Source: an uncultured Eubacterium sp. (GTDB lineage Bacteria > Bacillota > Clostridia > Lachnospirales > Lachnospiraceae). Taken from it: a DNA stretch of 32,866 nt. Made by a program: the position numbers and the translations under genes. Shown in pieces: positions 25,535-32,866 of the stretch; the first letter of the stretch is position 1; each line of letters opens with the position of its first letter. The DNA is taken from assembly GCA_947385105.1 (NCBI GenBank), contig CANDJR010000005.1, forward strand, positions 1-32,866. Direction: 5' to 3'. The notes under the pieces are model-generated. The model was given only the letters and a program-made list of their open reading frames with translations, searched no databases and was not told the origin of the DNA.

Positions 25535-25661
25535 CTCTTATTGTTCGATTACTCGCTCAGGCTGGCACCTTCCGCTTTACTGAATATTGCATCCTCGCAA
25601 TCTTCCAGGGGGTTGCCGTGACTTCACAGATCCTATGTATCTCCATCACTCTGAATAAGAG
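25535..25661 (-). ncRNA. SAM-I (S-box) riboswitch aptamer
   Basis: The minus-strand RNA has an 8-bp P1 helix (CTCTTATT, 25654-25661, with AATAAGAG, 25535-25542). It has the conserved GATGGAG, TGAAGTCACGGCAACC and AAGGTGCCA..CCTG core elements of the S-box in the right order. It precedes metK, the classic target, and is followed by an intrinsic terminator, so high SAM should switch metK off. Confidence 0.95.
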
Positions 25662-31199: not shown

Positions 31200-32498
31200 T
31201 TATTTTTTTGCCTTATCGTCTTTGCCAGCATTATCTTGTCCTGCACTGTTCGCATCATCCGTTCCTGTCTCAGCATTATCTGCGTCTGTGCCTGCATCGT
31301 CTGTGCTTGTGCCTGCGTCATCCGTTCCTGTCTCAGCATTATCTGCATCTGTGCCTGCATCGTCTGTTCCTGTCCCAGCATTATCTGCATCTGTGCCTGC
31401 ATCGTCTGTTCCTGTTCCGGTATTATTTGCGTCAGTGCCCGCATCGTCTGTCCCTGTTTCTGTTTCCGCTGTTTTCACTGTATATAATTCATCAAAATTA
31501 ACTTTTTCCCACGCATCCTCATGGATAGACCATTTGCAGCTGTCTTTATATTCTTTTAATTTTTCCTCGTATTTATCGTCGCGCCGCTGTGATAAAATCG
31601 ATTCTTTCTTTTTCTCTGCTGCCTCCTTGTCATCCAAAGAATCCATACGAAGTACATAGTAATTTGTTTCTGTCTCTACAACCGCATCTGAAAGCTTTCC
31701 TTCTTTCAGCTTGTCCGCTGCCTGCAGCACAGAGACATCCAGACTTGTTGTATTATCTTCTTCCGTTAAATCTCCGTCCCCATAAGAGCATGTTAAAATC
31801 GTATATTCTCCGGTTTCTGCTGCATCTTCCATATTTTCTGCAGCTGCTTCTAAAAATGCTTCTGCTTTTGCCTTCACATCTTCTTCTGTCTCTTTTTCTG
31901 TATCGCTGTCATTATTTGCTATAGCTTCGTTCACGCCTGGTTTTGCAAAGCTGACATAGCTAAATGTCTTCTGCGCACATTCCTTTGCACTGACATTTGT
32001 ATCAATTTCTGCTTCAATGGCCTTACGCATCTTGGACTGAATCGTCTGAATACGCAGCATTTCTTCTACTGTTTCTTGTGTTGCGCCCATTGTTTTGATC
32101 GCATCTGCGCTATTATCTTCGATAAATTTAGCGGCTGCGTCTGTAATCGCCTTTTTCTCATCTTCTGTCAAGGAAATGTCATAGTCTGCAGTATGTGCGT
32201 CTAATAAATAACAATCCTGCAGGTTTTCCATCACGCTCTTTTTGACAGACTCTGTCATTGTCGTACCATCGCCCGAATCCTGGCTCCACATATCTTCTCC
32301 ATAATAGGACAAAAGATAAGAATCCATCTGCACAGCCTGATATTGCGCCATAAAGTTCGCAAGGCCCATGGAAATATCTTTGCCGTCCAATGTAGCTGCC
32401 GCTGCACTCATATCGATGGACTTGCCGCACCCTGCTGCTGCAAAGGAAGGCAGGATCACTGCGGAAAGTAAGATAACTGCTATTTTCTTTAACTTCAT
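31200..32498 (-). CDS. SurA/PrsA-like peptidyl-prolyl isomerase lipoprotein
   Basis: This 432-aa exported lipoprotein has a signal at 4-20 and a lipobox AAGC with Cys24. Residues about 35-180 form a helical chaperone domain of SurA-N type. A parvulin-like region follows (about 180-300; SVLQAADKLKEGKLSDAVVET-type strand and turn pattern). Such lipoproteins fold secreted proteins outside the membrane. Residues 348-417 are an acidic 14-residue tandem repeat (GTDDAGTDADNAGT type), perhaps a wall-spanning spacer. The parvulin active-site residues are not obvious, so isomerase activity is not assured. The ATG at 32498 has AGGAGG upstream. Confidence 0.85.
   Translation of the reverse strand: MKLKKIAVILLSAVILPSFAAAGCGKSIDMSAAAATLDGKDISMGLANFMAQYQAVQMDSYLLSYYGEDMWSQDSGDGTTMTESVKKSVMENLQDCYLLDAHTADYDISLTEDEKKAITDAAAKFIEDNSADAIKTMGATQETVEEMLRIQTIQSKMRKAIEAEIDTNVSAKECAQKTFSYVSFAKPGVNEAIANNDSDTEKETEEDVKAKAEAFLEAAAENMEDAAETGEYTILTCSYGDGDLTEEDNTTSLDVSVLQAADKLKEGKLSDAVVETETNYYVLRMDSLDDKEAAEKKKESILSQRRDDKYEEKLKEYKDSCKWSIHEDAWEKVNFDELYTVKTAETETGTDDAGTDANNTGTGTDDAGTDADNAGTGTDDAGTDADNAETGTDDAGTSTDDAGTDADNAETGTDDANSAGQDNAGKDDKAKK
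31248..31457 (-). repeat. 42-bp in-frame tandem repeats in the lipoprotein tail
   Basis: Five 42-bp units, each made of two related 21-bp halves, encode GTDDAGT/DADNAGT repeats. Copies are nearly identical at the DNA level, which suggests ongoing expansion or contraction. The resulting tail is strongly acidic. Confidence 0.9.
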
Positions 32499-32514: not shown

Positions 32515-32573
32515 GAAATTTTCTATTTGGTATAAAATTTTCTATTTGTTACAAAATTTTTTATTTGTTCTGA
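32515..32573. repeat. Three tandem 19-20-bp repeats upstream of the lipoprotein
   Basis: The AT-rich unit AAATTTTCTATTTGTTAC (with small variation) occurs three times directly before the ribosome site of the PrsA-like gene. It makes up most of the mRNA leader next to the start. Confidence 0.85.
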
Positions 32574-32696: not shown

Positions 32697-32866
32697 CAGT
32701 TACTGTTCACTCCAGGGTTTTGCATTTACTGCAAAATCCGTAAGAACGTGTATCTTCAGCCTTGCGTGAATGCTGTCCTTTGCCGCAGGCAAACTTCCAA
32801 TGGACTGCACTCAGTTACTGTTCACTCCAGGGTTTTGCATTTACTGCAAAACCCGTAAGAACGTGT
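32697..32866. repeat. Two 55-bp direct repeats, 115-bp period, with internal hairpin
   Basis: A 55-bp unit (32697-32751) recurs at 32812-32866 with one substitution, and the contig ends exactly with the second copy. Each copy holds the hairpin GGGTTTTGCA / TGCAAAACCC (the first copy has one mismatch). The 60-bp spacer holds a second hairpin TTTGCC-GCA-GGCAAA. Stopping at a repeat boundary suggests a multi-copy element that broke the assembly. Confidence 0.88.

Follow-up and report, generated by a model that had tools for sequence, protein, structure and literature searches.

A copy of a new hairpin-bearing MITE family, with an internal tandem duplication, lies at an assembly break in an uncultured Eubacterium sp. 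genome

The last 170 bp of the window (the whole stretch of 32,866 nucleotides that was analysed, here contig C5) were found to lie in a copy of a MITE, a non-autonomous DNA transposon, which belongs to a new MITE family and is not a new kind of system. We consider it highly probable (approximately 0.93) that one copy of this MITE, mobilised in trans, was inserted in the 3' end of mfd and then tandemly duplicated, and that the short-read assembly broke in the tandem. The features discussed below are as follows (coordinates of the window, strand, description).

31200..32498, minus strand: SurA-like foldase gene, flanking and not part of the element; together with mfd on contig C96, it fixes the contig order
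32691..32698, no strand: left-hand copy of the target-site duplication (8 bp, CCATAGCA), whose right-hand copy is on C96, just after the element
32697..32811, plus strand: first 115-bp tandem unit, containing the element until its right terminal hairpin begins; the initial CA is target duplication
32699..32713, plus strand: left terminal inverted repeat GTTACTGTTCACTCC
32715..32739, plus strand: hairpin I of unit 1, with one G-T pair
32768..32812, plus strand: hairpin II of unit 1, with an outer stem, the nested tip TTTGCC-GCA-GGCAAA and an 8-nt 3' bulge, CTTCCAAT
32812..32821, plus strand: second occurrence of CAGTTACTGT, the tandem junction; the first occurrence is at 32697-32706
32812..32866, plus strand: beginning of unit 2; the same 55 bp open contig C96, where the element runs on to its right end
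32830..32854, plus strand: hairpin I of unit 2, with a perfect 10-bp stem

The original prediction described two 55-bp copies that differed by one base at a 115-bp period, each with a 10-bp stem, and a spacer with its own hairpin. The two 55-nt copies were confirmed at 32697-32751 and 32812-32866, with 98% identity and a spacing of 115 bp, as was the spacer hairpin at 32768-32812; the stem of copy 2 was perfect (GGGTTTTGCA/TGCAAAACCC), while copy 1 had TGCAAAATCC and one of its pairs was G-T. The contig was also seen to stop exactly at the end of a copy, as had been stated, but both this end and the 55-bp length were set by the assembly, and the copy continues in C96. A comparison of the contigs of the window's own genome (G000; 265 contigs, 94% complete) revealed that the last 55 bp of C5 were the first 55 bp of C96, that this 55-mer had no other occurrence in the assembly, and that the element was completed on C96, where it was followed by the 3' end of mfd. 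Because the end of C5 equals the start of C96 and the conserved mfd-foldase order joins both contigs, the second 55-bp copy is an assembly overlap, and the contig end is an assembly break inside the element, not a biological end. We infer that the overlap probably came from a k = 55 assembly graph; k = 55 as a property of the whole assembly was dropped, since C5/C96 was the sole pair with a 55-bp overlap among the sampled contig tips. The element explains the contig break at this site and probably others in the assembly, and it gives the two contigs their order.

The gene neighbourhood was compared with loci fetched from 12 other genomes of the genus. On C96, mfd was encoded on the reverse strand and contained a TRCF domain; the SurA-like foldase gene on C5, whose Pfam match was slightly under the cut-off, was on the same strand as mfd. 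In 10 of the 12 genomes, mfd was located directly before the foldase gene; the G015 locus showed the foldase alone, and G005 had no clear orthologue. Nine of the ten mfd-foldase gaps had no terminal inverted repeat (TIR) pair and represented empty sites, one of which (G011) had a lone right-end-like match, and the tenth, in G013 (L194), contained a different MITE of approximately 300 bp with an IS4-type end, GTTACTTTTCACACCCAATGTCATT, that had been inserted independently. The ten adjacent gene pairs and the nine gaps without a TIR pair therefore indicated that C5 and C96 are neighbours and that the element was inserted there. CCATAGCA was present on both flanks: on C5 it preceded the left end, and on C96 it followed the right end. 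At positions 119-145 of C96 (L002), the element end gave mfd its last eight codons and stop (GYCSLRSQ-stop), a small change of a host-gene tail by a MITE. Elsewhere in the window, we observed three 19-nt direct repeats (AAATTTTCTATTTGGTATA-like) at 32516-32572, just upstream of the foldase start, and a SAM riboswitch (RF00162, 60.5 bits) on the minus strand at 25535-25661.

The repeat was not confined to this locus. The 55-bp copies of the window had 46 matches in G000, most of them on different contigs, and this number is probably a lower bound, as 40 of 207 first-look candidates were scored. The 15-bp end motif was present at 256 sites with at most one mismatch, compared with 3 sites for the reversed control; because of these two counts, the repeat is not a product of chance. 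The prediction of a multi-copy, structured, interspersed repeat family was thus borne out, and the genome search it had proposed excluded the outcome of only two copies. Its choice of the 115-bp unit as the repeat element did not hold, as the mobile unit is a MITE of approximately 142-148 bp, and the 115-bp tandem represents a single duplication at this locus. The complete element had two forms, form A of approximately 148 bp (the window type) and form B of approximately 133 bp, both of which began with GTTACTGTTCAC and finished with GTGAACAGTAAC; the last unit of the window copy was 142 bp, with a shorter right hairpin. Terminal inverted repeats, GTTACTGTTCACWCC, were present at both ends.

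Flanking 8-mers were identical in 40 of 98 end pairs, which were drawn from G000 and related genomes and included some alternative end pairings of one copy, compared with 0.47 expected from shuffled partners; no other length from 3 to 12 stood out. Seven or more flanking bases matched in 61 of the 98 pairs, and fewer than seven of eight in the other 37, which were decayed copies or wrongly paired ends and weigh against the MITE account. At approximately 133-148 bp, the element was too short for a transposase gene. The characters of a MITE were thus found together: TIRs, a target duplication of fixed length, a short element with no transposase gene, many dispersed copies and empty sites in relatives. 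The dispersed copies with TIRs and an exact 8-bp duplication excluded CRISPR, REP and terminator readings, and no T run followed the hairpins on inspection by eye. Distant TIR pairs were considered as autonomous elements and rejected, as the pairs in L067, L086 and L120, and the 2.1-kb pair in G274, held other genes. Variant copies were also observed. In L069 (303-360), the left end GTTACTGTTCACTCC was present three times at 19-bp spacing; in L003 (G000:C129:3518-3791), a second tandem of the same MITE repeated the element and its 8-bp target at 150-bp spacing; and in L233 (192-252, G274), a 61-bp mini-element contained little beyond the two ends, with AGGGATTC on both flanks. Small derivatives such as this mini-element still carry the 8-bp duplication.

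The 115-bp period arises from a tandem duplication inside one element, between its two CAGTTACTGT motifs. One copy of this 10-bp motif stands at the left end, with a CA supplied by the duplicated target, and the other opens the right terminal hairpin; the two lie 115 bp apart on C5 and on C96 alike. Recombination or slippage between the two motifs yields exactly such a tandem. At least two units were present at this locus, and units 1 and 2 agreed at 114 of 115 positions across C5 and C96. Repeat families do cause breaks of the kind seen here, where the contig ends exactly in the tandem with an exact 55-bp overlap with C96, and the tandem might for that reason be an assembly artefact at a locus that truly has one unit. 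We regard this as very improbable, as the junction between GCACT and CAGTTACTGTTCACTCC must have stood in the reads, and its GCACT is peculiar to the window copy among 45 aligned elements; in addition, the two units differed at one base, and a tandem of a different make was present on C129.

The enzyme that moved the element was considered from its ends. In E. plexicaudatum ASF492, an element of 1,823 bp encoded an IS4-family transposase; its TIRs, which were 32 bp long, began with GTTACTGTTCACACC, and its 8-bp duplication was AATTTCTG. The first 15 bp of this element were the same as the MITE end, and forms A and B had only about these 15 bp in common with it. A fragment of the same IS4-like gene with a similar end was present at a G005 locus. 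Because the 15-bp end is exact, an IS4-like source would be favoured over an IS66-like one; no transposase of either type was found in G000, which counts against each of them as the source. Movement of the same MITEs by an IS66-family transposase is nonetheless a possibility, albeit a somewhat doubtful one. IS66 elements typically produce 8-bp duplications. A 2,314-bp element in G008, whose IS66-like transposase was under the NCBIfam cut-off and over the Pfam cut-off, ended in GTTACTTTTCACACC, with 14 of 15 bases in common with the form-A end, and similar MITEs in G010 and G011 carried the TTTTCACACCCA end of this element. However, the G carried by forms A and B is that of the IS4-like element, for which an 8-bp duplication was observed as well. 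ASF492 also contained two MITEs of 313 bp (L138, 207-519; L139, 224-536) that have the entire 32-bp end of the IS4-like element and, internally, long inverted repeats.

The MITE entered mfd at its 3' end, in the stretch that separates this gene from the foldase gene, and duplicated its 8-bp target. As the ends and duplications suggest, a DDE transposase supplied in trans would bind the 15-bp terminal repeats and integrate the element at 8-bp staggered cuts, and the likeliest source of this enzyme would be an IS4-family element like that of ASF492. After insertion, the copy grew by tandem duplication between the two CAGTTACTGT copies, whose spacing was read directly, presumably through slippage or unequal recombination, and the short-read assembly broke inside the tandem and left the contig with its overlap with C96. 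The hairpins were inherited with the MITE and are not specific to the locus; either selection on the folded strand or mutation that corrects palindromes may maintain them.

Searches with a covariance model of the core (R1) showed that related copies were widespread in the family. At E<=0.001, R1 matched 37 of 250 sampled family genomes (36 of 249 genera), with at least 16 copies per genome in several of them. Of 291 genomes sampled from the class, R1 matched 3 at E<=0.0001, each a member of this family; at this threshold, no match was found in about 281 sampled class genomes outside the family, a number implied by the listing order. The weakest R1 matches (e.g. L224, L230 and L231) lacked clear ends and could be decayed copies or chance matches. 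The copies in other genomes kept the order of hairpin I, linker, bulged hairpin II and right-end hairpin, and many of their ends differed, e.g. GTAACTGTTCAG. With ends picked to maximise the TIR, 13 of 28 loci from other genomes had TIRs of at least 10/12 (one of the 29 loci, L226, was omitted as it lay at a contig edge), and in 8 of these 13 the flanking 8-mers had at least seven matches, compared with 0.62 expected.

The named hosts among the matches listed by a pattern scan were mostly Lachnospiraceae genomes and MAGs, plus E. plexicaudatum ASF492 (G001), in which the TIR coordinates were the same as in G007, a member of the window's genus. NCBI places ASF492 under Eubacteriaceae, and GTDB puts it in Lachnospiraceae, so that Lachnospiraceae is the family name that we infer for the range of the element. 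As insertion markers, the copies of this MITE family are dense in gut Lachnospiraceae, the defined-flora strain ASF492 among them.

The recurring architecture consisted of hairpin I, a CGTAAGAA linker, a bulged hairpin II and a right-end hairpin, with many compensatory changes and two length forms in G000; the covariation check of the stems that had been proposed originally thus gave a positive result. Elements for the first alignment (A1, MAFFT) were gathered by sequence or end motif, and 101 distinct element-like strings were reduced to 84 with clear orientation and size, to 51 non-redundant strings and, after omission of 6 with an extra end motif in their ends, to 45. In A1, 96.9% of hairpin I cells were paired, and 7 of the 10 pairs showed changes at both positions. 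The covariation score of the whole structure in A1 was reached by none of 500 shuffles, and slid versions scored at most 0.065, compared with 0.197. The inner stem of hairpin II was paired in 64.1% of A1 cells, a low value that we attribute, by eye, to a shifted register of the short form in the alignment. In 21 long-form elements (A2, the A1 set with 22 short-form rows, L101:384 and L131:3283 omitted; A3 kept 19 of the 21), 97.5% of hairpin II cells were paired, and 5 of the 11 outer and 3 of the 6 inner pairs had changed on both sides. For A2, 106 of 500 shuffles attained the value for further pair types, and none attained those of the other measures. A further alignment (A6) of 30 elements consisted of 24 of the 29 covariance-model loci from other genomes (L220, L224, L226, L230 and L231 omitted) and 6 earlier elements; both-side changes were found in 25 of its 27 pairs, a count less neutral than those from A1 and A2, as most A6 elements were found by a model that rewards pairing, and 86.9% of its cells paired, compared with 66.0% in shuffles. 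The fold energies of two cores were 5.84 and 2.78 sd below those of shuffles.

Three readings of the fold remain: selection on RNA, selection on single-stranded DNA and palindrome-correcting mutation. The strong covariation and the low fold energies would suit an element that is primarily a functional RNA, regulatory or processing, with mobility secondary and its RNA fold kept by selection. The departures from pairing lean weakly in the same direction, as G-U events exceeded A-C events (45 vs 18 in model-fitted alignments; 30 vs 17 as a sum over overlapping MAFFT alignments), but the excess was weak in the MAFFT alignments. We nevertheless find a primary role as RNA unlikely. There was no Rfam match, the orientation relative to co-directional genes was not clear (21 vs 12), and the window copy was antisense to its neighbouring genes. 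Nor did the element show a preference for gene context once intergenic length was counted: a first count of 23 divergent cases out of 61, compared with 32 of 265 background pairs, suggested a preference that was dropped when the intergenic-length baseline predicted 17.6 divergent cases for the 23 of 62 observed (p = 0.16). Against the same baseline, convergent cases numbered 6 vs 10.6 expected (p = 0.13).

Template switching is a known mechanism for the correction of quasi-palindromes, and it is conceivable, though not probable, that the compensatory changes arose through such mutation in imperfect palindromes and not through selection on the fold. The A-C departures, which were also common, are as expected on DNA; however, the part order, the loop letters and the 3' bulge (CTTCCAAT-like) were kept across genera, for which palindrome correction alone is insufficient. 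A broader idea, which we hold to be rather unlikely, is that the heritable core might be the fold and not the sequence: a three-hairpin scaffold would have spread through one family while its stem letters and ends (GTTACTGTTCAC, GTTACTTTTCAC and GTAACTGTTCAG) changed, would have been moved by more than one transposase family, and would act as a folded strand in transposition or in survival in host transcripts. The covarying fold leads to a testable general question, namely whether selection on the folded strand or mutation within palindromes maintains the hairpins of bacterial MITEs.

To place the element among known systems, we compared it with described repeats and RNA families. None of the Rfam 15 covariance models matched it, which excluded a known RNA gene, and a literature search, with most subscription journals outside its reach, found no paper that described it; both results agree with the prediction of an undescribed family. 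ERIC and RUP are short intergenic MITE-like repeats that fold; the window element resembles them in being short, folding and MITE-like, a likeness by description only, and their hosts and sequences are different. ERIC and RUP are named in PMC3049150, which describes the BOX elements of Streptococcus pneumoniae as dispersed, folded, modular and MITE-like, with inner modules in tandem in variable number and TIRs likened to those of a resident IS. In PMC2266710 (Table 1), the IS4 family shows 7-10 bp duplications in several subgroups. A congener's element with an IS4-family transposase has the same first 15 bp as our element, whereas the latter is a MITE with no transposase and its end, GTTACTGTTCAC, fits by eye no subgroup end signature listed in that paper. 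BrickBuilt of Porphyromonas gingivalis (PMC4596501) is a MITE that contains a tandem repeat, has predicted stem-loops and lacks an Rfam match, all of which our element shares. In contrast to BrickBuilt, with its 23-nt unit in one species, the unit here is 115 bp, with relatives in many genera and compensatory changes. The element is likewise a dispersed, folded, modular, tandem-bearing MITE as described for BOX in PMC3049150, a likeness by description of make-up; the host is different, and whereas BOX is built as boxA-boxB(n)-boxC, the tandem here duplicates most of the element, at one locus. BOX and BrickBuilt are the nearest in make-up, and what merits the attention of a specialist is the covarying architecture that these elements keep across genera.
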